Below the pieces are notes generated by a model that had not been told where the DNA came from, made no database searches, and saw only the letters and a program-made list of their open reading frames with translations. From the NCBI GenBank assembly GCA_022340485.1, contig JAJDNX010000005.1:1-39970 (forward strand): a stretch of 39,970 nt of DNA, written 5' to 3'. The position numbers and the translations under genes are program-made. Shown in pieces: positions 1,590 through 33,234 of this stretch (position 1 is the first letter of the stretch; the number at the start of each line of letters is the position of its first letter). The stretch comes from Gammaproteobacteria bacterium (GTDB lineage Bacteria > Pseudomonadota > Gammaproteobacteria > UBA9214).

Positions 1590-1766
1590 CGGCTGGTACT
1601 GCTTCAATCCAATAATGACGGATGTGCTTCCGTGGCTATTCAATAAATTTGGTGTCCAGCTTACCTATAGTTCAGCATCCGTTATTATCAGCTTGAAAGA
1701 GCAGTGGCAGTATACCCGATTAGGGATTCGATTTTTTCTGTCTATGTTTGTCTGATACCTGCGACC

Positions 1767-2591
1767 TCAGCGAGCTTCTCGAAGAATATGCTCGGCGAGC
1801 GCCTGGTAATTGCCGCCGAAATGATGGCCGCCGGACATTTTCAGCACCTTCGGCGTGCGCCGGGTCCAGAAATAGTGCAGCGCATCCAGGCCAACACTGG
1901 GAATGCCGTCGGCGGCCAGCGCCTCGGCCAGGGATTTATCGATACTGGCCCAGCCACCATCACCGGAGATTATGACGGCGAAGGTCTTGCCCGGCTGCTT
2001 GACGGGTACCTCGATAAGCGGCAGGTTCGCCAGGCTGGTAGATTTTGCTGACTGCGGTGCATGCGCATCTGCGACCAGTTGATTGAAGCTCTCCTGGAAC
2101 TGTGGCAGCCAGTTGCGCTGTACGGAAAAGCCGTGACCCACCCTGGGCAACTTGACCACCCGGGCCTGGCCAGTTTGCGCGACGAAGTGTGCCACGGTGT
2201 TTGCGTCGCAGACCTGGTCGATGTCCCCCTGCAAGGCAATCCAGGGCGTCGGCAGCTCCGCTACTGGCAGGAAATCATAACCCTTACCGCTGGCACCGGT
2301 GGTGAATTTGAGGCCGCTGCCGCGGCACATCGGTTTGGTCATTGGCAGGTCGGGGCAGAAACCCAGGCTGATGCCGCCACGGAAGGTGTTTGGCGGTCCC
2401 TGCGCGAGGGTGGCATAGACCAGCGTCGCGCCGGAGGAGTAGCCGACCAGTACCGGTGCAACATAGTCCGGAAGGCCGTAGCGCTTTTGCAAAAACTGGC
2501 TCAAGCCCTCGAAATCCGCGGCCGGATAGCTGCAGGCTTCCTTGCCGGACTCAAGACGCTTGAGACAGGCCGTGATATCAATTCCGGCCAC
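1767..2591 (-). pseudogene. acvB: AcvB/VirJ lysyl-phosphatidylglycerol hydrolase remnant (N-terminally truncated, internally deleted)
   Basis: AcvB/VirJ proteins are periplasmic serine hydrolases with two alpha/beta-hydrolase-like halves. The Agrobacterium and Rhizobium members hydrolyse the lysyl-PG made by the adjacent MprF/LpiA enzyme. Here the first half starts abruptly at 'VAGID' with no signal peptide. It retains LVGYSSGATLVYATL, CPDLP and GHGF. The second half retains ISGDGGWASIDKSLAEAL and YFWTRRTP, then jumps directly to KVLKMSGGHHFGGNYQALA, the family's C-terminal end. Roughly 110-130 residues between these points, including the C-terminal GYSxG nucleophile segment, are gone, in frame. 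The only start is an internal GTG at 2591. It lies downstream of mprF and the DUF599 remnant. Very unlikely to be active. Confidence 0.85.
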
Positions 2592-3122
2592 CCGCCGAGC
2601 GTATAGTGTGTGCCGCCGCGCTCGAGAATTTTAACCACGTCTCCGACACTGATTTCCGTGTGGGCATCGGTCGGCAGGTTGATCATGAAACCGGTGTGAT
2701 TGAAGTAGCGTACGGCCAGGGTGAAGTTAAAAAAACGCGAACAGAAAATCTGCGCCCAGCAGGATGAGTTTGCCGAGCCATAAACCGGGATGATCGTTGC
2801 CGAAATGGTTGATTAGCAGCGACAGCTCGCCCTGTTTGTCCGCGGTAATCGCCAGATTGAAGATCCCCAGCCCGATCAGGATGGCGGTGGAAGCGAGGAA
2901 GGTCGCCGCCATGGTCCAGTTGCGCAGGGTTTGAATCGCCAGGATATCCTTATTACTCTGCATTATATTATGTACCCACAAGGCGCGTATGCGATGCGCC
3001 AGCCCCAGGGAGGTGCTCAGGGGGTCGCTGCGTATTTTGTGGTAGAGATACACGTGGTACATAAGCAACAGCAGCAATGCCACGGGGCTCAAGCCAAACT
3101 CAATGTGACGCAGCATGTCCAT
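2592..3122 (-). pseudogene. DUF599 membrane protein, frameshifted and 3'-truncated
   Basis: Translation from ATG 3122 gives a DUF599-type protein: VALLLLLMYHVYLYHKIRSDPL, then the hallmark ILAIQTLRNWTMAATFLAS, and two more hydrophobic helices. It stops at 'FLFAFF' inside a run of seven T (plus-strand A run 2729-2735). Removing one T continues the family sequence as NFTLAVRYFNHTGFMIN, then DVVKILERGGTHYTLG, where DUF599 proteins go on with 'MRGYYLA' and a last helix. That final part is replaced by the acvB remnant, out of frame. There are thus two lesions: a homopolymer frameshift and a deletion fusion. The gene starts 15 bp after the mprF stop, so it was probably in the mprF operon. DUF599 function is unknown. 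Confidence 0.8.
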
Positions 3123-3137
3123 ACTGTTGTTTCCTGT

Positions 3138-5816
3138 CTAGTCGGATTTGAAAAATATGCGCCGGTAGCCGCCTGCAATCAATGCGGCGCTGTCCATCAG
3201 CAGCAAGGGCAACGGAGTGAGGGCGGGGTAGGCGAGGTAGGCGCTGCGCCATTCGGGGTGAAACTTCTCCTTGAAGCTGCGCAGCCCCTTGTAATTATAA
3301 AAGCGGTTGCCGTACTCGAAGGCCAGGCGGGCGACTCTCTCTCCGGCGCGCGCATAGCGACTTTCACCCACGCCGGCAAGTGGCGCCATGCCCAGGTTGA
3401 AGTACTGATAACCCTGTTCCCTCGCATACTGAATCAGCTCGACAAACAGATAATCCATGGTGTCGTGCGGTGCATCAGAGTGGTAGCGCATCAGGTCGAT
3501 ACTCAGTTCCGTGTGACTGCCATAGTCCGGCACCACGTTGGTGAAGGCAACGATGCGCTGCTGCACCCTGATCACGGCGACAGGACTGCGACCCAGATAG
3601 GCTTCATTGTAATTACCCAACGAGAATCCCTTTTCGGCAGCGCCGCGCTCGGACAGCCAGGCGTTTGAAATGGCGCGCAATTGCGGCCAGATGTCATCAC
3701 CGAGCGGCTGCTCGAGCAGTTCAAACACTGCGCCACCGCGCCTGGCGCGATTGACGCTGTGGCGCAGTGATTCTCCGCGTTTACCCGTGGTGGTGAAGGT
3801 CGCCAGCTCAACCACCGCCTTTTCGCCCAGCTTGAACAAGGCGAAACCGGCATCGTGATAGCGGTGCATATGGGTTGCGCTGACTTCATAGAGGCACGGG
3901 GTCAGGTTATGCCGGTCGGCATGGTCGCGGAATGCAATGATGGCGGCATCGAAATCATCCACATCGCCACAGGGGTCACCGAGCGCGAACAGGCGCTCGC
4001 GTATCTGCGCGTACTGGATGAATGCCTTGCGAGAGGGTGACCACAACAGGGATTTGTCGCCGAGAAACAGCAGGTGGGCAAACTCGCTGCCGCCGTACTG
4101 ATTCAAAACGGCCTCGGCCTCGCCCAGCGTCTGTGAGTCAGGACCGGCGGGTACTGTTCTGGGGCGCTGAAAGAATGACCAGCCAATGAATCCGGTGGCC
4201 ATCGCGGCGGCGATCAGCAGGCCACGCGCGAATCGCGGTGCCTCCTGGGTGGGCGCGAAACGCGAAAGGTGCTCCCATCCCAGCGGAATATTGCCATGTA
4301 CCCAGTCACCCAGCCAGGCAAAGCCAATCACGGCTATGACGAGCCCCGCCAGCCATATCAGACTGCGGGGACTCAGCAGCGGATAACTCGCGCGGTAGAA
4401 ACGGCCACGCTGACGCCTGAGCAGCAGGGCCACGGTGAGCAGTATAATCGCCTCCTCGTAATCGATACCCTTGAGAAAGCTGAAAAGTGCACCGCTGATG
4501 AGCAAGCCCAGGGTCAGAAGGTAGGCGTTGCGAACCTGTTCGGCAATACCGCGCGACAGCGCGATGAGCAGCACGCCGGTCGCAATCGACAGCAGATGTG
4601 AAATCTCGATGGCTGCAAGCGGCACATAACTGTGTAATATCGCGAGGCGATTGCTCAGGGCTGGAAAGGCAGCGGAGGCGAGCAGCACTACACCCGCACC
4701 GAAGGTCAGGTAGGCCAGTGCCCGTACACCGAGGGAGGCGAGTACATCTAACGGCAATCTCAGCAGTGCCGGTAACTTGCTATCGCCCCACTGGCGTGCC
4801 AGCGCCGTGTGCTGCCAGTGTTGCGGCAGCGCCAGCTTGTCCGCACCCAGGTAAACCGCGATGAGCCAGGGCACCAGGTAATAGCAGAGGCGATACACAA
4901 GTACACCCGAGACCAGGGTTTCCGTCCCTGTGGCGAAGGGTGCAAGCAACACCACCAGCGCGGTGTCGAATACACCCAGTCCGCCCGGAATCAGGCTCAG
5001 AATGCCAAGTGTGGAGGCCAGCACAAAACCGGAGAGAAACTGCGGCCAGGGTATGGCAGCGCCACTGAATTCGAGTGCAACCCAGGCAGCCGTTGCGGCA
5101 ATCAGCCAGTCCAGGGTCGAGATGGCGATCAGCCCTGCGAGCGACACTGCCGTTTGGGGTGCAAGACCGCGGAGCAGGCGCGCAAACATCCCTTTGTATA
5201 ATGTGAGCAGGTAGAACGGGAGATAGGCGGCAAATAGGCCAAGCGCCAACCAGGCAGTCCAGGCCGGGATCGGCAGTCGCTCTGTACCCGGTCCACCGGT
5301 GAGCAGCAGCGGCCAGCTCATTACTGCCAGGCCTGTCGGTACGGAAGCCATGATCAACGCCGAAAACGATGCGGCCCGCCGCGCGTCGATGCCTTCAGCA
5401 CCAAGCAGCAGCATGCGGATGCCTGATCCCGCCAGGCCGGAGAAGCCAACGAGGTTATTGAATGCGTTGGCGATCCAGGCGTTACGGATCAGTGTGGGCA
5501 GTGCGAGCCCCAGACCAAATACACGCGCGGCACGCCAGTCGTACAGGCTCATCGCCAGTATGCCTGACAGGGCAACCAGCTGGATGATCAGCAGCTGGGA
5601 CAGGGTGAGCGCCTGCAGCACCGCGCGCACGGCGTGAATATCAAGTCCACGCAGCTCGCGGGCCGCGAGTGCCGCGATGATTACAAGGAATACCGCCGGC
5701 AACAAGCGTTGGATCCAGCGCAGTAGTTGAGAGGATGCAGTGTCCGCCATGTCGCTGGGCTGTGTCCCGGTTGTCGGGTCGACCCGGTGCGTGTTCAGGT
5801 GCTTACTGGAATGCAT
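3138..5816 (-). CDS. mprF: Bifunctional lysyl-phosphatidylglycerol synthase/flippase MprF
   Basis: MprF transfers lysine (or alanine) from aminoacyl-tRNA to phosphatidylglycerol at the inner membrane and flips the product outward, lowering surface negative charge. The N-terminal ~540 residues form many membrane helices (for example FLVIIAALAARE, LLSLIPGGLGVFDTALVVLLAP and a helix block near residues 390-540), matching the flippase domain. The C-terminal ~330 residues are the DUF2156 synthase: LLFLGDKSLLWSP, SLRHSVNRARRGGA, YQYFNLGMAPLAG and LRSFKEKFHPEW. At 892 residues it is close to the family's 840-880. ATG 5816 has AGG at a suitable distance; an in-frame TTG at 5840 and ATG near residue 23 are alternatives. 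DUF599 and acvB remnants follow directly, so the matching hydrolase appears lost. Substrate amino acid cannot be read from sequence. Confidence 0.93.
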   Translation of the reverse strand: MHSSKHLNTHRVDPTTGTQPSDMADTASSQLLRWIQRLLPAVFLVIIAALAARELRGLDIHAVRAVLQALTLSQLLIIQLVALSGILAMSLYDWRAARVFGLGLALPTLIRNAWIANAFNNLVGFSGLAGSGIRMLLLGAEGIDARRAASFSALIMASVPTGLAVMSWPLLLTGGPGTERLPIPAWTAWLALGLFAAYLPFYLLTLYKGMFARLLRGLAPQTAVSLAGLIAISTLDWLIAATAAWVALEFSGAAIPWPQFLSGFVLASTLGILSLIPGGLGVFDTALVVLLAPFATGTETLVSGVLVYRLCYYLVPWLIAVYLGADKLALPQHWQHTALARQWGDSKLPALLRLPLDVLASLGVRALAYLTFGAGVVLLASAAFPALSNRLAILHSYVPLAAIEISHLLSIATGVLLIALSRGIAEQVRNAYLLTLGLLISGALFSFLKGIDYEEAIILLTVALLLRRQRGRFYRASYPLLSPRSLIWLAGLVIAVIGFAWLGDWVHGNIPLGWEHLSRFAPTQEAPRFARGLLIAAAMATGFIGWSFFQRPRTVPAGPDSQTLGEAEAVLNQYGGSEFAHLLFLGDKSLLWSPSRKAFIQYAQIRERLFALGDPCGDVDDFDAAIIAFRDHADRHNLTPCLYEVSATHMHRYHDAGFALFKLGEKAVVELATFTTTGKRGESLRHSVNRARRGGAVFELLEQPLGDDIWPQLRAISNAWLSERGAAEKGFSLGNYNEAYLGRSPVAVIRVQQRIVAFTNVVPDYGSHTELSIDLMRYHSDAPHDTMDYLFVELIQYAREQGYQYFNLGMAPLAGVGESRYARAGERVARLAFEYGNRFYNYKGLRSFKEKFHPEWRSAYLAYPALTPLPLLLMDSAALIAGGYRRIFFKSD

Positions 5817-5969
5817 AGGCCTGAAGCTGGCTATTCTCAAGTGAGGTTAGGGTCGGATCGGTATCGTCCCTGATGAACAGACACCCAGAATACCACGGCT
5901 TGTCTCCTGACACGCGTTCCCGGTATGGCGAAAAGCATTGGTGTCTCGTTGCGGCCTTCGAGTGGCCCG

Positions 5970-8900
5970 TTACTCCGAGACACTGACCTCGCCTTTCAGC
6001 AGGTGGAACACCACCGGCATGGCGATCAGCACCAGCGGCAGTTGCACCAGCAATCCGGCGATAATGGCGATGGCCAGTGGCTGCTGCATGGCAGATCCCT
6101 GACCCAGGGCCAGGGCAAGCGGCAGCAGTGCGAGTATTGCGGCCAGTGTCGTCATGGTGATCGGACGCAGTCGTTTGCGCCCGGACTCGACCAGCGCCGC
6201 CATGTGCGCGAGTCCGTTGCGGCGTTGTTCATAAAGTTCGGAAAAATAGAAGATCGATACCTCGGTGATGATCCCGACGATCATGGTCATGCCCATCATG
6301 GCGGTGATGTTGAGTTCTGTACCGGTAACCCACAGGCCAGTAAAGACGCCGCCCAGCGCCAGCAGTGGCATCAGCAGAATTGAAATCGCGACCCGGAAAC
6401 GCTCGTACAGGAACAGCAGCAACACAAACACCAGGGCCAGCGCGGCAAAAAATACGGCAATCAGGCCTTTGAAGGCAATCTGCTGCTGTTGATAGAGCCC
6501 GCCCAGTTCATAGTACACATCGGCGGGCAGCATGCCAGGTTGTGCCAGTACCTGCTTGACTTCACGAATGGTGGAACCCAGGTCTCGCCCACTGATACGA
6601 CCGGTGACAGCGATCATGCGCTTGAGATTGTCACGCATAATCTGCGGCTGGCCGATTTCAGTCCTGACGGTTGCGATGCGCTTCAACGGGACGCGATGGC
6701 CATCCGGTGCGCGCAGCCATAGCTGCTCGATTTGTTCGCTATAGCGCCGGGCCTCGGGTGGAACCCAGACACGGACGCCGATGAATTTGATGTCTTTCTG
6801 AACCTGGGTCGTCACCAGGCCTTCGAACCAGGCCTGTAGTTGCCGGGTGACCTCGTCGGGGTCGATGCCTTCGAGGGCGGCCTTGTCGCGTTCAACTTGT
6901 ATGTTGAGCGCATTACCTGCCACAACGATACCGTCGTTGACATCGACTACGCCGGCTATTTTTGTAATGGCATCAGCGACCTTTGGCGCAGTACCCAGCA
7001 AATCATCGAACTTGTCGCCATAGAGTTTGATTTCGATCGGCTGCGGCACGGCAGTCAGGTCACCGATCAGGTCTTCCATCAGCAGTGCCATCTCAACCTC
7101 CAGGCCGGGTACCTCGTTCTCAACCCGATCACGAATGTTATCCATCACCTGGTCGATCGGTAGACGCGGCAGCGGTTTCAGGCGCACGAAGAAATCACCT
7201 TCATTGGCCTCCGTGAGTCCGCCGCCGAGCTGTGCGCCGCTGCGTCGTGAATAGGTTTGTACATTTTGATCAGCGGTGAGGATGGTTTCAACCTGCCGAA
7301 GCAGGCGGTCCGCCTCGGTCAGCGAGGTGCCGGACGCTGCACGGTAGTCGAGGATGAACCCGCCTTCGTCCATGTGTGGTATGAAGCCTGAACCGACCTG
7401 GTGGTAAGCGAACCCCCCGATGATGAGGAGCGGCACCAGTCCGGCAGCCAGCCACACGGGTCGTAGCAGCATCGCAGTGAGGGTTCGGGTATAGATCTGC
7501 AGGATGCGTTCGAACAGCGGGCCGCTGTCCTCGCGTTCGGCATCGGTTGTTTTCAGCAGGTGTTCGGCCAGCAACGGTACTGCCAGCCAGGTAATCAGAA
7601 AGGATATAAACAATGAGGTCGCCATGGTCAGCGACAAGGCCTTGAAGAAGGCACCGGTCACGCCACTCAGGAAAGCCAGGGGGGCAAAAATCACGATAGT
7701 CGCCGCCGATGAACCTGCCAGTGGCACGGAAAACTCGACGGCAGCCTCGCGCACCGTGTGCGCCAGCTCCCCCGGCCGTTCCCGCAGGCGGCGCACCAAG
7801 TGTTCGATCATGACAATTGCGTCATCAACGATCAGCCCCACTGCAGCGGCCATGCCACCGAGTGTCATGATGTTGAAACTCATATTCAGCGTGTGGAGCA
7901 GCAACACGGCGGTTGCCAGCACGGAGGGAACCACAATGATCGCGATAAAGGTGATCCTGGCACTGCGCAGGAATAGCAGCAGCACAACGGCCGCGAGCAC
8001 AGCACCGATCAGGATCGAATCGCGTACACTGCTGGCCGAGGCGACGATCAACTCACTCTGGTCATACCAGTTCGCGATGCTTACGTCTTCTGGCAGGGTG
8101 TGGCGATAGCTTGCAAGGCGTGCCTGTACATCGTGGACGATATGTACGGTGTTGCTGCCCGGCTGCTGGTAGATCTGAACCAGTACCGCATCGTGACCAT
8201 CGGCTGTCACTCGCAGCCATTGTGGTGCGGTGCTGCGGTAGACTCGGGCAATATCATCGAGCCGGACCAGGCCATTTTCACCGCTCTTGAGTACCGTATT
8301 TTCAATATCCGAGAGAGAGCGAATACGGGTATCGGATATCATAAGATAAAGTTTGTCGTGATCTTCCAGTCGCCCGATGGCCTGCAGGATGTTGGTTGCC
8401 GAGACGGCGGTCGCGACGTCACTGAAGCTTAGTCCGTAGGCCTGCAATTTTTCCGGATCGAGCTCGACGCGGTACTCGGCTTCCTCGCCGCCCATCACTG
8501 AAACGCGTGCAACCCCGTCGATAGCCGAAAGCAGGGGGATCAGCTGGTACTGACCGATGTCACGCAAGGCAACCTTTGACTCGGTCGCAGAGGTGAGGCT
8601 GAAGGCTGCGATCGGGAACACGGTAGGGTCCATGCGAAGGACATTGAATGAGGTGCCCGGTGGCAATGCCGGCAAGACCTGGTTGACGGCCGATTCCACC
8701 TGCAGCATGGCGGAGATCATGTCCTCACCCCAGTTGAAGTTGATGGATAATTGCGCACTGCCGCGGCTGGTGGTCGAGCGCAGGCCGGCAACACCCGGCA
8801 CCGAGCGTACCACTTCCTCGACTGGCCGGGTTACCGCGATGACCATCTGATCGGCAGGACGGTCCGCGGTTTCCAGTGAAACCACGATGCGTGGAAAATC

Positions 8901-9020
8901 GACGTGCGGGAACAGGGCGACCGGCAGGCGCAGTGCCGCTGCAAGACCGGCAACAGCCAGCAACGCGACCAGAAACAGAATAGAGCGCCGGTGACCGGCT
9001 GCCCAGTGGGCAAGGCTCAC
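5970..9020 (-). CDS. RND efflux pump, inner-membrane permease subunit
   Basis: This 1016-residue protein is the proton-driven pump of a tripartite exporter. It shows the RND layout: helix 1 (ILFLVALLAVAGLAAALRLPV), a periplasmic porter domain (TRPVEEVVRSVPGV), helices 2-6 with the proton-relay GGMAAAVGLIVDDAIVMIEH (Asp pair), a second porter domain, and helices 8-12. TM10 reads MIVGIITEVSIFYFSE, with Glu near the site where AcrB has Lys940. This variant is, to my knowledge, typical of a CzcA-like/HAE1 subfamily. The start overlaps the adaptor stop by 4 bp (ATGA), so the two are translationally coupled. Substrate is unknown; multidrug or metal are both possible. Confidence 0.93.
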   Translation of the reverse strand: MSLAHWAAGHRRSILFLVALLAVAGLAAALRLPVALFPHVDFPRIVVSLETADRPADQMVIAVTRPVEEVVRSVPGVAGLRSTTSRGSAQLSINFNWGEDMISAMLQVESAVNQVLPALPPGTSFNVLRMDPTVFPIAAFSLTSATESKVALRDIGQYQLIPLLSAIDGVARVSVMGGEEAEYRVELDPEKLQAYGLSFSDVATAVSATNILQAIGRLEDHDKLYLMISDTRIRSLSDIENTVLKSGENGLVRLDDIARVYRSTAPQWLRVTADGHDAVLVQIYQQPGSNTVHIVHDVQARLASYRHTLPEDVSIANWYDQSELIVASASSVRDSILIGAVLAAVVLLLFLRSARITFIAIIVVPSVLATAVLLLHTLNMSFNIMTLGGMAAAVGLIVDDAIVMIEHLVRRLRERPGELAHTVREAAVEFSVPLAGSSAATIVIFAPLAFLSGVTGAFFKALSLTMATSLFISFLITWLAVPLLAEHLLKTTDAEREDSGPLFERILQIYTRTLTAMLLRPVWLAAGLVPLLIIGGFAYHQVGSGFIPHMDEGGFILDYRAASGTSLTEADRLLRQVETILTADQNVQTYSRRSGAQLGGGLTEANEGDFFVRLKPLPRLPIDQVMDNIRDRVENEVPGLEVEMALLMEDLIGDLTAVPQPIEIKLYGDKFDDLLGTAPKVADAITKIAGVVDVNDGIVVAGNALNIQVERDKAALEGIDPDEVTRQLQAWFEGLVTTQVQKDIKFIGVRVWVPPEARRYSEQIEQLWLRAPDGHRVPLKRIATVRTEIGQPQIMRDNLKRMIAVTGRISGRDLGSTIREVKQVLAQPGMLPADVYYELGGLYQQQQIAFKGLIAVFFAALALVFVLLLFLYERFRVAISILLMPLLALGGVFTGLWVTGTELNITAMMGMTMIVGIITEVSIFYFSELYEQRRNGLAHMAALVESGRKRLRPITMTTLAAILALLPLALALGQGSAMQQPLAIAIIAGLLVQLPLVLIAMPVVFHLLKGEVSVSE

Positions 9021-10063
9021 CGGGCAGCCTCCTGTACAGCCATGCCATCTTCTACCACATGACTGCCCACGGTGATGACCTTGTCACCGGCTTCGAGAGG
9101 GCCGCTGACGTTCAGCAAGGCGCCCTCGGCCAGTTCAATGTTGACCTCGATGCGTTTTGCCTTGCCGTCCTCAACCCGAAACACATAGGCACCGTCAACG
9201 CCAAGCTGCACCGCGTTTCTGGGAACGACCAGCTGGGCTGTTGTGTCAATGATGATTTCGGCTTGCACGGTGCTGCCAAGTGTGAGCTGCCCGGCTTGTT
9301 CTTCCGGGATCGGTACGACTACATCCACCAGCCGGGTGTCCGGGTTGATGAGTGCGTGTACGGCAACCACCCTGCTTTCAATCCGAACACCCGGATCGAA
9401 AACGGACGCGAGCACAACAACCTGGCCGGGTTGTACACGTTTGGCGTCTTCGGGCTCAGCGCCGAGAAGAACCAGTAAGCGATCCTGGTGACACAGCAAC
9501 AGGGCCGTTGTATCTGCCTGTACGCGTGTGCCCTGGGTAATGTTCAGTTGCGTGACAATGCCGTCGAAGGGTGCGCGTATGGTTTGCAGTTGCAAATCTG
9601 CACCGACCTTTTGCAGGGATTCAAGCCTGGTTTTGCTATCCGCCAGGTTCTTTTCTGCCGATTGCAACTGGTCACGCGTCGCCAGCTGTTCGTCCAGAAG
9701 ACGCTTGAAACGGAGTACTTCACTACGTGCAAAATCCATTGCTGCCCTGGCTTGCAGGTAATCCATGCGCGTACCCGGTGCCGTATCGATTTCCAGCAAC
9801 GGGTCACCTGCGGAAACCCGTTGTCCAAGCCGTACCATCAGCCGGTTGATCAGACCGGCGCGTGGCAGGTTGATACTGACCAGGGCATCCGGGTCCGGTT
9901 GCAGGCTGCCAAAGACTGCAAGCCGCGTTTCTGCGGGCGCTTCGCGTACCTCTGCCGTCTGCACGGTGGCCTCTGGCTCGGCATTGACGGCTGCGCAAGT
10001 CATAGCTGTCAGGGACGCCAGCAACAGTTGCATCAGGGTACAGCTAACGGTGATCCATTTCAT
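9017..10063 (-). CDS. RND efflux periplasmic adaptor (membrane fusion protein)
   Basis: The 348-residue adaptor links the pump to the outer-membrane channel. It has an N-terminal export signal (LMQLLLASLTAMTCAAVNAEP) and the split lipoyl domain (SINLPRAGLINRLMVRLGQRVSAGDPLLEID, later IRAPFDGIVTQLNI). A short alpha-hairpin between them has heptads (AMDFARSEVLRFKRLLDEQLATRDQL). Beta-barrel and membrane-proximal domains follow (RVQPGQVVVLASV, VPRNAVQLGVDGAYVFRV). Length is normal. It lies 2 bp after the tolC-like gene and overlaps the pump gene by 4 bp, in the order channel-adaptor-pump. Confidence 0.92.
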   Translation of the reverse strand: MKWITVSCTLMQLLLASLTAMTCAAVNAEPEATVQTAEVREAPAETRLAVFGSLQPDPDALVSINLPRAGLINRLMVRLGQRVSAGDPLLEIDTAPGTRMDYLQARAAMDFARSEVLRFKRLLDEQLATRDQLQSAEKNLADSKTRLESLQKVGADLQLQTIRAPFDGIVTQLNITQGTRVQADTTALLLCHQDRLLVLLGAEPEDAKRVQPGQVVVLASVFDPGVRIESRVVAVHALINPDTRLVDVVVPIPEEQAGQLTLGSTVQAEIIIDTTAQLVVPRNAVQLGVDGAYVFRVEDGKAKRIEVNIELAEGALLNVSGPLEAGDKVITVGSHVVEDGMAVQEAAR

Positions 10064-10065
10064 GG

Positions 10066-11466
10066 CTAATCAGTCTCCACGCAAGCGTCGATGTTCGTTT
10101 TGCCCAGCAGCGTCTCCAGTGCCAGTCGCGTTGTCCAGGATTGCTGTGCCAGGTCCAGTTGTTCGAGTTTCTTGTTGACCCAGGTGGTCTGCATGTTCAG
10201 GAAGGTCAGGGCACTGATGTCACCACCCTGGTAAGCCTTGCGCGCCTTGACGACCATGGATTCAAGCTCGGGCAGACGCTGCTCCAGCAATTGCTGTTGT
10301 TCGGTGATCAGCGATTGCACCCCAAACAGTCGCATTACATCAATTTGGCTCTGGTCAAGGCGTGCTTGATATTCGGCATGCAGTTGTTCCCGGGTTGCGC
10401 GCTCGATCGCGATAGTCCCGCGGTTGCCGCTGAACAACGGCAGGGTGAGGCTGATGGAAAGGCCAGAGGTGTAAACATTGCTGGTATCACGCGCACGCGA
10501 AACACCAAGGCCGAGTGACGGGAACTGGCTGAGTACGGCACGATGCACGCTGGCTTCCTGGCTTGAATAACCGGCGCTCAAGGCAAGCAGGTCGGGACGT
10601 CGTTGTGGCAACAGCTGCAACGCTGCTTCGATGTCCTGTTCAGATACAGGTTCAGCCGGTGGCGGCACCTGCAGGTCAAGCGATGCCTGTGGTAACAGTC
10701 CCAGCAGCTGGGCCAGGTCGTGTTGCTTGTTGTTGCGAGCCTGGCGGGTCTGGTTGAGTTGCGTGGCAGTATCAAGCAGCGCGGTAAGGTCCGTGCCGGT
10801 GGCCTCCACGGTCATATCCCCCTTGGCCAGTGCGGTGGACGAATGCTGATAGCGCTGCTGGTAAAGATCGAGCATGTGCTCCAGCAAGGCGACTTTCTGT
10901 TCCAGTGTCACCAGTTCGACATGCAGGGTGCGTGCCTGTTCAATTGTCTGCCATTCCTGCCACAACAAATCCAGAACAATCTGTTGTTGTGCAGCGCTGG
11001 CGGATTCGATACCGGTGCCGCGCGTGAGTAACGGGATGATGTCGTAGCTGAGGCCGTACGCATAGGCGTTTACGAGTCCCGCATCGTTCCCCGTTGGATG
11101 ATCCAGGCTGGCGGAGATTTGCGGATCGGGAAACAGGTGTGCTGCATATACCTGGGCTTCGGCAACGCCGCGACGGCTGCGCGCCGCTCGCAGGTCAGGA
11201 TTGTTCGCGACCGCCAGCATGGCAGTTTCCCATAGATCCAGACCGTCAGCCGGATCAAAAGGGTGTTGTTGAGCAGCAGCTAAATCCATGGTGTTGCGGT
11301 CTATCCGGATCGCGTCAAGGGCTGGTGCCAGGTTGTCGTGATCCGGCAAAGGCAGCGGTTGATAACTTGCACAGGCGTGCAGGGTGATTGCTGCCAGCAA
11401 CAAGGCAGGACGTACTGCGACCTGCCATTGGCCTAGAAGGCTGGATGCTGCCGGACGATCAATCAT
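10066..11466 (-). CDS. TolC-family outer-membrane efflux lipoprotein
   Basis: This 466-residue outer-membrane channel completes the tripartite exporter. The N-terminus is hydrophobic and ends in LHACASY, a plausible lipobox with the acylated Cys. TolC-type internal duplication is visible: two helical hairpins, each introduced by an 'A(L)xxNPDLxAAR/RRPDLLALSAGYSSQEA' segment and followed by LGLGVSRARD and SISLTLPLFSGNRG, the usual beta-strand plus 'PLFxG' motif. It is first in the operon. The 92-bp gap to dedA upstream could hold the promoter, but I see no clear hexamers. Confidence 0.9.
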   Translation of the reverse strand: MIDRPAASSLLGQWQVAVRPALLLAAITLHACASYQPLPLPDHDNLAPALDAIRIDRNTMDLAAAQQHPFDPADGLDLWETAMLAVANNPDLRAARSRRGVAEAQVYAAHLFPDPQISASLDHPTGNDAGLVNAYAYGLSYDIIPLLTRGTGIESASAAQQQIVLDLLWQEWQTIEQARTLHVELVTLEQKVALLEHMLDLYQQRYQHSSTALAKGDMTVEATGTDLTALLDTATQLNQTRQARNNKQHDLAQLLGLLPQASLDLQVPPPAEPVSEQDIEAALQLLPQRRPDLLALSAGYSSQEASVHRAVLSQFPSLGLGVSRARDTSNVYTSGLSISLTLPLFSGNRGTIAIERATREQLHAEYQARLDQSQIDVMRLFGVQSLITEQQQLLEQRLPELESMVVKARKAYQGGDISALTFLNMQTTWVNKKLEQLDLAQQSWTTRLALETLLGKTNIDACVETD

Positions 11467-19154: not shown

Positions 19155-20084
19155 TCATGCGCGACCGCTTTCAATCAACTTCCGATAACTCGCCATGCGC
19201 CGTTCAAGGATGCCACCTTCTGCAACCGCGGCAGTAATGGCGCACCCCGGTTCTGACAGATGGCGACAGTTATGGAACCGGCACTGGCCCAGATAGGGGC
19301 GAAATTCGCGGAAGCAGTAATCGAGTTCCTCGTCGGGTACCCTGGCGAGGTGAAAATCCCGTACACCTGGCGAATCGATCAGCTGACCACCATGCGGCAG
19401 GTGGTACAGGGTGGTCGCGGTGGTGGTATGTTTGCCCAGCCCGGACGCTGCTGATAATTTGCCGGTGACAATGTCGCGGTCCGGCAGCAGGCACTTCACC
19501 AGGGATGACTTGCCGACACCAGACTGACCCACCAGGATACTGGTCTTGCCGGACAGGCTGTCGGCAAAGGCCTCGATGCCGGTATTCATCAGGGCGCTGA
19601 TCAGCAGGGTTGTATAGCCGATGTGCCGGTATTCAATGATCAGCAGGCCGATACGCTCGCGGTCCTGCTCCTGCAGCAGGTCTGCCTTGTTGATCAGGAT
19701 CAGGGGTTCGGTGTGCGCCAGTTCTGCAGCGATGCAGTACTTGTCAATCAGGAAGTAATCCAGGGCGGGTTCCAGTGCGGCCTCGATAATGACCTGATCG
19801 ATGTTCGCCACCAGCGGCCGCTGGCCATGGTTGCCATCGGCACGGTGCAGCACCGTGCGCCGCGGCAGGATGGTCTCGATGACGCCGCTATTGTCACCAC
19901 CGGCCGGAAGCCACTCAACCCTGTCACCGCACACGATCTGTGGCAACCCGCGCCGGGCAACGCAGCGGCAGATGTCACCTTCCGTGGTTTCGACCAGTTG
20001 ACTCTTGCCATAGTTGACGATGACCAGCCCGCGAAGGGGGCTGGAATTTTTATTGTCCGTGCTGATACGAATGGGTCCCGTTCT
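19155..20084 (-). CDS. rsgA: Ribosome small subunit biogenesis GTPase RsgA, 5' end unusual
   Basis: RsgA matures the 30S subunit. The circularly permuted GTPase is clear: G4 LINKADLL, then G1 GQSGVGKSSLVKCLL, G3 DSPGV and the C-terminal zinc region (QCRFHNCRHLSEPGC). The OB-fold is coded upstream of the ORF-track start: RGLVIVNYGKSQLVETTEGD, RCVARRGLPQIVCGDRVEW. The track's TTG at 19946 would cut this fold. The frame opens right after the phhB stop (TAA 20087-20085) and contains no in-frame ATG, GTG or TTG before the OB-fold, only ATT (20072) and CTG (20027). The usual basic N-terminal tail of ~30 residues is missing. The coordinates given mark the open frame; the true start is unresolved. 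It may use a rare start by coupling to phhB, or have lost its start. Confidence 0.85.
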   Translation of the reverse strand, partial: RTGPIRISTDNKNSSPLRGLVIVNYGKSQLVETTEGDICRCVARRGLPQIVCGDRVEWLPAGGDNSGVIETILPRRTVLHRADGNHGQRPLVANIDQVIIEAALEPALDYFLIDKYCIAAELAHTEPLILINKADLLQEQDRERIGLLIIEYRHIGYTTLLISALMNTGIEAFADSLSGKTSILVGQSGVGKSSLVKCLLPDRDIVTGKLSAASGLGKHTTTATTLYHLPHGGQLIDSPGVRDFHLARVPDEELDYCFREFRPYLGQCRFHNCRHLSEPGCAITAAVAEGGILERRMASYRKLIESGRA

Positions 20085-28086: not shown

Positions 28087-28136
28087 TATTTCACCTGGTT
28101 ACCACAGTCTTACGAGTGTGTGGACGGGTAAACATC

Positions 28137-28637
28137 ATGCGGCTATCAACCAAAGGGCGTTATGCAGTGACTGCCATGCTGGATCTTGCGATCCACTATG
28201 AGGAGGGGCCGGTGACCCTGGCGGGTATCTCAGCGACGCAGGGTATCTCGTTGTCCTACCTGGAACAGCTATTCGTGCGTCTGAAAAAGGACGGCCTGGT
28301 TGAAGGTTTGCGTGGCCCCGGGGGTGGTTACCGGCTGGCGCATTCACCTGAGGATATTTCCATTGCGCAGGTCATCAATGCGATCGGGGAGAATATTGAC
28401 GCCACCGTGTGCGGTGGCCGCGAGGACTGTCAGGATGGCCAGCGTTGTCTGACGCACGCATTGTGGGAAAAGCTGGGTAACGAAATCCATGAATTCATGC
28501 ATGGCATAACACTCGCCAGTTTTCTCAGGCGTGACAAGGTCAGTGCGGTGGTACGACGGCAGCAGACCGGTGTTGAAATTGCGGTTGTTGAACCCGCATT
28601 GAATAGTATGGCCGCCAGGCAGCAGTCTGGTTATTAA
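28137..28637 (+). CDS. iscR: Fe-S cluster assembly regulator IscR
   Basis: IscR is an Rrf2-family winged-helix repressor that senses cluster supply through its own [2Fe-2S]. The 166 residues start MRLSTKGRYAVTAMLDLAIHY, with the recognition region QGISLSYLEQLFVRLKKDGLVEGLRGPGGGYRLA. The three cluster Cys lie in CGGREDCQDGQRCLTH. The nearby His of RCLTH is the usual fourth ligand. ATG 28137 matches the family; the track's start seven codons upstream does not. It heads the isc operon. The C-terminal tail is short and Gln-rich. Confidence 0.96.
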   Translation: MRLSTKGRYAVTAMLDLAIHYEEGPVTLAGISATQGISLSYLEQLFVRLKKDGLVEGLRGPGGGYRLAHSPEDISIAQVINAIGENIDATVCGGREDCQDGQRCLTHALWEKLGNEIHEFMHGITLASFLRRDKVSAVVRRQQTGVEIAVVEPALNSMAARQQSGY

Positions 28638-28669
28638 CCTTAAGACGAAGTTTTTACAGGTAATTTGAC

Positions 28670-29890
28670 ATGAACGTTAGCATACCGATCTACATGGACT
28701 ACTCTGCCACCACACCGGTTGACGAGCGTGTCGCGGAAAAAATGTGCAGCTACCTGACGCGCCAGGGGCAGTTTGGCAACCCGGCCTCGCGCTCGCATGA
28801 ATTCGGCTGGAAGGCCGAGGAAGCCGTGGAGCAGGCGCGCAAGGAGGTAGCACAGCTGATCAATGCCAACCCCAAGGAAATTATCTGGACCTCGGGCGCC
28901 ACTGAATCGGATAACCTCGCCATCAAGGGTGCCGCACACTTTTACCAGAAAAAGGGCAAGCACATCGTAACCCTGAAGACCGAACACAAGGCCGTGCTGG
29001 ATTCCTGCCGGCAGCTGGAGCGGGAGGGTTATGAAGTCACCTACCTGGATCCGGAACCCAGCGGGTTGCTGGATTTGCAGAAGTTTGAAGCAGCCTTGCG
29101 TGGCGATACCGTGCTGGTGTCCATCATGCACGTAAATAACGAGATCGGTGTCATCCAGGACATAGCAGCCATTGGTGAAATCTGCCGCGAGCGCAATATT
29201 GTTTTTCACGTCGATGCCGCGCAGAGTGCCGGCAAGCTTCCCATTGACATGGAAAAGCTGAAGGTAGACTTGATGTCATTTTCGGCACACAAGATCTACG
29301 GTCCCAAGGGAATCGGTGCCCTGTATGTGCGCCGTAAACCGCGTGTACGACTGGAAGCCCAGATGCACGGGGGCGGTCATGAACGCGGCCTGCGTTCCGG
29401 AACGCTGCCAACTCACCAGATTGTCGGTATGGGAGAGGCCTTCCGGATTGCGCGCGAGGAAATGGTGGAAGAGGAAGCGCGCATACGCAGACTGCGTGAC
29501 CGGCTCTGGAATTCCCTGAAGGATATGGAAGAGGTCTATCTCAATGGCGATATGGATCAGCGTGTGCCGGGCAACCTGAATGTCAGCTTTAATTTTGTTG
29601 AAGGTGAAAGCCTCATTATGGCACTGAAGGATATGGCAGTGTCCTCAGGTTCGGCTTGCACCAGTTCCAGCCTCGAACCTTCCTATGTGTTGCGGGCACT
29701 GGGTCGTAACGATGAACTTGCGCACAGTTCCATACGCTTTACCATTGGCCGTTTTACCACCGAAGAGGAAATCGATTACGTGGCCAATCTGCTACGGGAA
29801 AAGGTCAATAAGCTGCGTGACTTGTCACCGCTCTGGGATATGTTCAAGGAAGGTATTGATCTGGATTCCGTCCAGTGGGCCGCTCACTAG
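28670..29890 (+). CDS. iscS: Cysteine desulfurase IscS
   Basis: This PLP enzyme removes sulfur from cysteine and hands it to cluster scaffolds and tRNA-modifying proteins. The 406 residues are typical of group I NifS/Isc[34 protein letters not shown], the PLP lysine in [12 protein letters not shown] and the catalytic loop [16 protein letters not shown] with the persulfide Cys. The C-terminus [22 protein letters not shown], which contacts IscU in E. coli, is complete. Its usual immediate neighbour iscU is missing; iscA begins 12 bp after the iscS stop. Confidence 0.97.
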
Positions 29891-29902
29891 CAGGTAGCGA
29901 TC

Positions 29903-30226
29903 ATGGCAATTACATTAACAGCAGCAGCGGCCGAACGGGTCAAAACATTTATCGACAAGCGCGGTAATGGCGTCGGACTGCGCCTTGCCGTGAAAACAAC
30001 CGGCTGTTCCGGAATGGCCTATGTCATGGAGTTCGCCGACCAGATTGAAGAGGATGATGTGGTATTCGAAGATCAGGGCGTCAAGGTGCTGATCAATCCG
30101 AAGAGCCTGGTGTACCTCGACGGTACCGAGCTTGATTACGCAAAGGAAGGACTCAACGAGGGCTTCAAATTCAACAACCCCAATGTCAAGGATATGTGTG
30201 GCTGCGGGGAAAGTTTTAACGTCTGA
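29903..30226 (+). CDS. iscA: Iron-sulfur cluster assembly protein IscA
   Basis: IscA is an A-type carrier that helps form or deliver [4Fe-4S] clusters. The 107 residues include the three ligand Cys: TTGCSGMAY near residue 35 and MCGCGESFN near the end. [18 protein letters not shown] is diagnostic for IscA rather than ErpA or SufA. It is directly preceded by iscS where iscU is normally encoded. hscB follows after 47 bp. Confidence 0.96.
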
Positions 30227-30273
30227 TGTCAGCTTGTTGCTGACTGCTGTCTTGTTTCCTGCTGGTTGTCCCC

Positions 30274-30828
30274 ATGGCTGCGGATCATTCCACAACCCAC
30301 TTTGAGCGTTTCGGTCTGGCAAAGTCTTTTGATGTCGATCTCGATTTGCTGGATGAACGCTATCGCGCCAGTCAGCGTGCCATGCACCCCGACCGGTTCG
30401 CGAATGCCACGGACCAGGAGCGTCGCATTTCCATGCAGCAGGCGACACTGATTAACGAGGGCTATCAGATCCTGAAGGACCCGTTGAAGCGCGGCCGTTA
30501 CCTGCTGCAACTGGCTGGTCGCAGCTTTGATGATGAACACCACACGAACAGTGATATCAACTTTCTGATGGAACAGATGGAGTTGCGTGAGGCACTGGAT
30601 GAGGTGCGCAATGTCGCCGATGCCTTTGCGGAGCTGGGTGTGATCATTGAGCGGATTGCAGATGATATTGCCCGACTGGCGAGTGGCTTGCAGCAGCAGT
30701 TCAGTGCCGGGGATGCGGACAGTCTTGATCTGGCAGCTGACAGCCTTACAAAGATGCAGTTTTACCGCAAGCTGCAGGAAGAGGCCATGGAGCTGGAGCT
30801 GGAACTGGAGGACGAACTTGCCGGTTAA
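30274..30828 (+). CDS. hscB: Fe-S cluster co-chaperone HscB
   Basis: HscB is a J-domain protein that brings IscU to HscA. The 184 residues show a J domain with MHPDRFAN (the HPD motif stimulating HscA ATPase) and LINEGYQILKDPLKRGRYLL. The C-terminal three-helix bundle (LMEQMELREALDEV, LTKMQFYRKLQEEAMELE) forms the IscU-binding surface in E. coli. It appears intact although its client gene is not in the operon. Confidence 0.95.
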   Translation: MAADHSTTHFERFGLAKSFDVDLDLLDERYRASQRAMHPDRFANATDQERRISMQQATLINEGYQILKDPLKRGRYLLQLAGRSFDDEHHTNSDINFLMEQMELREALDEVRNVADAFAELGVIIERIADDIARLASGLQQQFSAGDADSLDLAADSLTKMQFYRKLQEEAMELELELEDELAG

Positions 30829-30929
30829 CCGTGAGCGCAGTAGTTAAATTCCAGACCTCTCATCGTCTCAATGATGTATCCCACGCGCAGGCAGCGGGGA
30901 CGCTTGGTAAGTAGTTAGAACTTGATCAA

Positions 30930-32810
30930 ATGGCACTTTTACAAATATCAGAACCTGGTCAATCCAGCGCGCCACACCAGCACCGGTTGGCAGCAGGCAT
31001 CGACCTGGGCACCACCAACTCGCTGATTGCCAGTGTCCGCAGTGGTGTGGCAGAAACCCTGCCGGACCTGGAGGGGCGCCACCTGTTGCCATCGGTGGTG
31101 CGCTATCAGGCCGATGGCCCGGTGGTTGTTGGCCACGATGCACTGGCCGCGGCGACCGAAGACCCGCTGAATACCATTGCCTCTGTGAAGCGCCTGATGG
31201 GGCGTGGTGTTGAGGATGTGAAGGGCATCGGCGAGTATCTGCCCTATGAATTCGTGCCGGGATCGAGTGGCATGCCGTTATTGCATACCGCGGCGGGCGA
31301 CGTGAGCCCCGTCGAGGTTTCTGCAGAAATCCTGCGGGTACTCAAGAGGCGTGCCGAGGAGACCCTCGGCGGGGAGTTGAGTGGTGTCGTGGTGACGGTG
31401 CCCGCTTATTTTGATGATGCGCAGCGGCAGGCCACCAAGGACGCCGGGCGACTGGCGGGCCTGAATGTCCTGCGTTTGCTTAACGAGCCGACTGCCGCAG
31501 CGGTTGCCTATGGACTGGATAAGGGCTCGGAAGGTGTGATTGCAATCTACGACCTGGGCGGGGGTACCTTTGATGTTTCCATCTTGCGCCTCAACAAGGG
31601 TGTGTTTGAAGTCATGGCCACCGCGGGAGATACCGCACTGGGTGGTGATGACATGGACCGCCTGGTGGCCGACTGGATTATGCAACAGGCCGGCATGAAG
31701 GCGGATGCAGGCCATGTAGACATGCGCCGACTGATGCAGGTTGCACGAGCGGCGAAAGAAGACCTGTCAAGTCACTCCGCAAGCACGATTGAACTTGCAC
31801 TTGAAGGTGGCACGACCTGGAAAGGTCAGCTGTCCCGCGAACAGTTCAATTTATTGATTGCGCCGCTGCTGGAGCGAACACTTGGACCCTGCCGTCGTGC
31901 GTTACGCGATGCAGGCATACGCGCCGCCAGCGTCAAGTCCGTCGTCATGGTGGGTGGTGCGACCCGTGTGCCGCTGGTGCGCCAGCGGGTTGCCGAGTTC
32001 TTCGCTGCCGAACCCATGATTGATATTGATCCCGATAAGGTGGTCGCCGTCGGCGCGGCCATTCAGGCGGATATCCTGGCAGGTAACAAGCCTGATAACG
32101 AGATGTTGCTGCTGGATGTGATCCCGCTGTCGCTGGGGATTGAAACCATGGGTGGCCTCACTGAAAAGATTATCCAGCGCAACAGCACCATTCCGGTTGC
32201 CCGCGCCCAGGAATTTACCACCTTCAAGGATGGCCAGACCGCGATGTCCTTGCACGTGGTTCAGGGGGAACGCGAGCTGGTGGAAGATTGCCGTTCTCTT
32301 GCAAGGTTCGAGTTGCGCGATATCCCGCCAATGGTGGCCGGTGCAGCCCGTATCAAGGTAACGTTTCAGGTCGATGCAGACGGCTTGCTGAATGTAACGG
32401 CTGAGGAACAGACACAGGGGGTTAGCAGCAGTATCGAAGTCAAGCCATCCTATGGTCTGAATGACAGCGAAATCGAGACCATGCTGAGGGACTCCATGAC
32501 CTCTGCAGCCGCTGATCGCGATGCCCGGCGGCTGCGTGAGGAACAGGTCGAGGCGGACCGGGTGCTGGAAGCGCTGCATTCTGCCCTGGCCGCTGATGGT
32601 GACGAGTTGCTGGATGAAGCAGAACGCAATGCCATCGACGAGGCGGCAAAGCGGCTTGAAGAGCAGCGCGGTGGTGATGACTATCGCGCCATCAAGAGGG
32701 CGATTGAGGCCGTTGAAAAGGCCAGCAGTACCTATGTCGAACGGCGTATGAACAACAATATTCGCAAGGTAATGGCCGGACACAAGCTGGATGAATTCAA
32801 ACCCTCCTGA
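30930..32810 (+). CDS. hscA: Fe-S protein assembly chaperone HscA
   Basis: HscA is the Hsp70 dedicated to cluster transfer from IscU. The 626 residues begin [32 protein letters not shown], as in E. coli. They contain [33 protein letters not shown] and [14 protein letters not shown] of the nucleotide-binding domain. The linker [17 protein letters not shown] and a helical lid follow, with the substrate-binding beta-domain between. Full length. Known HscA recognises the LPPVK peptide of IscU, which is not encoded here. Confidence 0.97.
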
Positions 32811-32895
32811 GTATCAGCTGCAATCACTGCGCGTGGCCCGGGACGAGTGGGATGCTAGCGTTATTTTTACATGACTACCAATTGAGTAAGCCGTT

Positions 32896-33234
32896 ATGCC
32901 GCAAATTATTTTTCTGCCACATGAGGAAATCTGTCCGGATGGCGCCGTGATCGAAGCCGAACCCGGTGTCAGCATTTGTGATGCGGCACTGAAAAACGGC
33001 ATCGAGATTGAGCATGCCTGCGAGAAATCCTGCGCCTGCACTACCTGTCATGTGTATGTCCGGGAAGGTGCCGGTTCGCTGAACGAGTCCGATGAAGATG
33101 AGGATGACCTCCTCGACAAGGCCTGGGGCCTGGACCCGGATTCGCGCCTGAGTTGCCAGGCCATTGTCTCGGACCAGGACCTGGTGGTGGAAATACCGAA
33201 GTACACGATTAATATGGTCAGTGAAAATCACTAA
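32896..33234 (+). CDS. fdx: ISC-type [2Fe-2S] ferredoxin
   Basis: This adrenodoxin-like ferredoxin supplies electrons to cluster assembly. The 112 residues match E. coli Fdx: IIFLPHEEICPDGAVIEA, the ligand loop CEKSCACTTCHVYV, DEDEDDLLDKAWGLDPDSRLSCQAIV with the fourth Cys, and the acidic C-terminal region. Start and length are as expected. iscX follows 15 bp later. Confidence 0.97.
   Translation: MPQIIFLPHEEICPDGAVIEAEPGVSICDAALKNGIEIEHACEKSCACTTCHVYVREGAGSLNESDEDEDDLLDKAWGLDPDSRLSCQAIVSDQDLVVEIPKYTINMVSENH

Follow-up and report, generated by a model that had tools for sequence, protein, structure and literature searches.

Does an intact gene for an aminoacyl-phosphatidylglycerol (aminoacyl-PG) synthase beside a broken AcvB-type hydrolase gene mean that the hydrolase was selectively removed, or is the hydrolase one of several genes lost in a wider decay? 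This question is raised by one end of contig JAJDNX010000005.1 of a Gammaproteobacteria genome (GCA_022340485.1), of which positions 1 to 39,970 were analyzed (39,970 nt; the window). The first-pass annotation of this DNA had described mprF as kept while the neighboring acvB was destroyed, and had proposed that lysyl-PG would be made without its turnover enzyme, which may fix a permanently less negative envelope.

The synthase gene is full length, as that annotation had it. It lies on the minus strand at 3138..5816 (892 aa; 900 aa if a possible upstream TTG start at 5840 is used) and, according to domain and NCBIfam matches, encodes an intact bifunctional aminoacyl-PG synthase/flippase of the MprF/LpiA type. 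The product matched the NCBIfam equivalog for bifunctional MprF (NF033480) with 824 bits (cut-off = 600 bits) over profile positions 2-840 of 841, and both Pfam domains are complete (PF09924, 2-298 of 298; PF03706, 5-301 of 302). Conserved residues are kept, as the protein differs at 3 of the 145 columns that are invariant in nine homologues. It is 68% identical to the MprF of MAG UBA6920 (L064), and its sequence resembles structurally solved Lys and Ala enzymes alike. A promoter scan of positions 1600-6100 yielded nothing above chance.

What is left of acvB is an open frame of 274 aa on the minus strand (2591..1767), 57% identical to its nearest intact homologue, the AcvB of MAG UBA6920, and matching the AcvB structure 9xhm with E=1.3e-29. 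Homology to AcvB extends over both halves of the gene. Alignment with homologues and 9xhm divides the frame into a larger part, which holds the bulk of the non-catalytic N-terminal half together with the VirJ half up to about position 47 (1851..2591), and a C-terminal tail with a GGHHF motif (1767..1850); the VirJ profile (PF06057) was accordingly matched over positions 2-47 of 191 only (81 bits). Between the two lies a breakpoint (1848..1853) at which 117 codons of the catalytic half are gone in frame. Compared with 12 intact AcvB homologues, this gap is one clean block, with RRTP directly followed by KVLK at ~1850. The 5' end is missing as well, including the signal peptide, with 88 N-terminal residues of the UBA6920 protein absent here. 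We thus confirmed the reported absence of the signal peptide and of ~110-130 second-half residues with the GYSxG segment.

The missing block corresponds to residues 309-425 of Agrobacterium AcvB in the alignment to 9xhm. In that enzyme, Ser336 is the nucleophile, Asp340 and Asp370 serve substrate recognition and the Trp378/Leu379 loop serves membrane association (PMC13197417, PMC13135905); mutation showed that Ser336, Asp271, Asp340 and Asp370 matter, and lysyl-PG hydrolysis requires the C-terminal domain, which suffices for it on its own and binds LpiA (PMC13197417). The counterparts of Ser336 (in GYSxG), Asp340, Asp370, Trp378 and Leu379 all fall inside the missing block, while those of Ser269, Asp271 and the catalytic His433 are still present (SGDGGW and GGHHF are kept). 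The GYSSG that the remnant retains is that of the first half, which is non-catalytic. Judged by the published facts on AcvB, the remnant cannot be an AcvB-type lysyl-PG hydrolase, because the lost block carries Ser336, Asp340, Asp370 and the Trp378/Leu379 loop. Its product would probably be neither exported nor active as a hydrolase.

The damage is not limited to acvB. A gene for a DUF599 membrane protein (PF04654; 3122..~2597, minus strand), absent from the first-pass annotation, sits between mprF and acvB and is also broken. Its 5' part (2727..3122), recognized by a profile match, is cut short at ~2727, where the frame changes within seven consecutive T. The continuation in another frame (2597..2726; ~44 codons, with 77% identity to the intact gene of a congener, L145) is cut at ~2597, and the last ~39 codons of that gene have no counterpart. 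The coding pattern is kept before and after the change of frame. Comparison with homologues revealed that the loss of the DUF599 C-terminus and that of the acvB start (~88 codons) share one breakpoint (2591..2597, minus strand), which joins the two genes in different frames. Further out on the minus strand, family matches identified an EmrA fragment (936-649) directly against a C-terminal EmrB fragment (649-236). These fragments (236-936), joined by a large deletion, add two more to the decayed genes at this edge of the contig, DUF599 and acvB. An open fragment at 6-194 had no family match; by eye it resembles a truncated amino-acid permease. The damage does not reach beyond the outer 3.1 kb of the contig, where three neighbors of acvB (DUF599, EmrA and EmrB) are broken too.

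We further placed this edge in its genomic setting. Upstream of mprF lies an RND efflux operon (permease, adaptor and a TolC-like gene; 5970-11466), and no close homologue of its permease was found in 12 congeners. Synteny with the congener G004 begins at ~12.3 kb, beyond this operon. From 12.3 to 25.9 kb the window is collinear with G004, with genes that are full length and mostly 76-94% identical. The same 12 congeners contain neither an LPG synthase domain nor a VirJ domain, and mprF and acvB are therefore accessory genes in this genome. A contaminant contig was considered and rejected, given the collinear stretch and a dnaX gene that is the genome's only full copy, is 82% identical to that of G004 and assigns the contig to this genus.

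Two further observations concern other parts of the window. No common start codon was seen for the N-terminal part of rsgA (19155-20084), whose conserved reading runs upstream past the listed TTG to the preceding stop. The isc cluster (28116-33234) reads iscR-iscS-iscA-hscB-hscA-fdx, without iscU; that gene is found by itself on another contig, following a second Rrf2-type regulator (L032:6570-7465). An Rrf2-iscU pair without adjoining iscS or iscA was present at every full-length iscU locus checked in genomes of the family, including the single-contig G013; the split isc operon is family-wide. We accordingly discarded the idea that the missing iscU was a third deletion, of ~400 bp, marking an error-prone assembly.

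Among 96 relatives, seven genomes carry an LPG synthase domain, and an intact VirJ domain occurs in only one of them (G015). Three members of the class outside the family (G050, G060 and G079) encode long MprFs in genomes without a VirJ domain. The same holds for two MAGs with close full-length homologues of the window MprF (Dive100, L066; Thiogranum, L067). MprF without AcvB is thus common in the class. G015, which belongs to the same family, is a mirror image of the window (L033:2431-6369): the catalytic half of its acvB is intact, and the adjoining mprF has an in-frame gap of ~45 residues in the synthase domain. The MprF of this genome is the closest to that of the window, but its AcvB clusters with AcvBs from purple sulfur bacteria rather than with those of the window and UBA6920, an apparent acvB swap. 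All that remains of mprF in another MAG (ES_M_Gamma_082, L125; 6001-6327) is a decayed C-terminal piece with 77% identity and an internal stop, and no VirJ domain was found in that genome. Among relatives, parts of the module have disappeared by other routes.

The broken genes show little sign of age. Between the window and UBA6920, the ratio of AcvB to MprF distance is 1.57, within the range of closely related pairs of intact modules (1.01-2.35), and the codon-position ratio of the remnant is 0.54 (intact pairs, 0.41-0.63). The remnant also keeps 50 of 53 invariant columns. Since it evolves like the intact copies, with no drift, the breaks appear to be recent, or else the lesions would be assembly errors at the contig end. 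We consider it likely that mprF, DUF599 and acvB form an accessory module and that the latter two are recent pseudogenes within the decaying outer 3.1 kb of a lineage-specific stretch. Under this reading, two deletions and one frame change would have made pseudogenes of both genes.

All evidence comes from one fragmented metagenome-type assembly of one genome with the lesions at a contig end, and the main competitor is that the mprF-DUF599-acvB module is whole in the living strain, with both breakpoints and the homopolymer frame change arising from consensus or strain-mixing errors. The clustering of the lesions within 3.1 kb of the contig end, the position of the frame change in a T run, the coding pattern kept on either side of it and the remnants without relaxed evolution would all fit such an artefact. 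However, the core genes of the same contig show no comparable lesions relative to G004, the module has eroded independently in relatives, and no N runs were detected in the window or in ~230 kb of sampled contigs, which gives no sign of collapsed scaffold gaps; we therefore regard an assembly origin as improbable, though the most serious of the alternatives. The open and conserved remnant would also fit a retained function, with the shortened AcvB staying in the cytoplasm and serving a new role; its 274 codons follow an intact-gene pattern. Such a protein is very hard to credit, given that it lacks a signal peptide, that its GTG start at 2591 overlaps the broken DUF599 reading and is not preceded by a convincing ribosome-binding site, that both alpha/beta-hydrolase halves are cut, and that no relative shows this form.

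The hydrolase might also not be lost at all, if an intact acvB/virJ or an unrelated aminoacyl-PG hydrolase were hidden in the unassembled part of the genome or had gone unrecognized. The assembly is 93% complete in 161 contigs, leaving 7% of the genome missing. A search of it for a second acvB/virJ copy, as the first-pass annotation had suggested, used the VirJ profile PF06057 and a full-length AcvB query and returned only the fragment in the window, even at E<=1. Intact modules in relatives, moreover, usually hold a single acvB adjoining mprF. We think it unlikely, though possible, that the missing part contains an acvB, and give the idea of a surviving hydrolase as a whole little credence. 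About as improbable, in our view, is that loss of the hydrolase was itself selected, such that a lineage rarely carrying MprF holds aminoacyl-PG constitutively, which would be nature's equivalent of deleting acvB in Agrobacterium. The locus can be explained without selective removal of the hydrolase, because acvB is one of several broken genes at a decaying 3.1-kb edge. Likewise, selection for a permanently altered envelope is unnecessary, because solitary MprF is common and the module breaks in other ways in relatives. The description of a hydrolase destroyed beside a kept mprF stands: the two genes form an LpiA/MprF-AcvB type pair of which only the synthase gene is intact.

If the recent-pseudogene reading is correct, MprF, if expressed, would make and flip aminoacyl-PG (probably lysyl-PG), a positively charged membrane lipid, without AcvB-type turnover, as in other bacteria that lack AcvB. 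The level of this lipid would then be set by mprF expression, the supply of lysyl-tRNA and PG, and dilution by growth. The proposal of lysyl-PG synthesis without a turnover enzyme is plausible and sound as an inference from the genes, with only the synthase gene intact and no second VirJ gene in the assembly, but it describes nothing special, as several class members have MprF without AcvB. A permanently less negative envelope would depend on expression, on the substrate (Lys or Ala) and on the lipid level. The locus offers a natural case in which a lysyl-PG hydrolase gene was freshly lost and the synthase gene kept, and one data point on the dispensability of AcvB outside acid-stressed plant-associated bacteria. 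It leaves the known picture unchanged: AcvB-less MprF is common in the class already, and there is nothing unusual in accessory genes decaying at the edges of islands.

The arrangement resembles the lpiA-acvB operon of Agrobacterium tumefaciens, in which a lysyl-PG synthase gene precedes that of a periplasmic lysyl-PG hydrolase, an AcvB-family alpha/beta-hydrolase of two halves, but differs in the DUF599 gene between the two, the broken hydrolase gene and the gammaproteobacterial family in which it occurs. Closer to home, it is similar to the mprF-acvB pairs of UBA6920, Thiobaca, Thiocystis, Thiodictyon and Povalibacter, where the genes are adjacent on the same strand; these pairs, however, have full-length AcvBs, and no DUF599 match turned up in their vicinity. 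With the solitary mprF genes of L066, L067, G050, G060 and G079, it shares a full-length MprF in a genome without an intact VirJ gene, whereas L066 and L067 showed no acvB remnant beside mprF. The gene content finally recalls the Delta-acvB mutant of A. tumefaciens C58, with synthase present and hydrolase absent. When acvB is lost in A. tumefaciens, lysyl-PG increases and growth at low pH suffers; loss of lpiA has no such effect (PMC13135905). Unlike the window, that mutant was made in the laboratory, and it has a strong acid-growth defect (PMC13135905).
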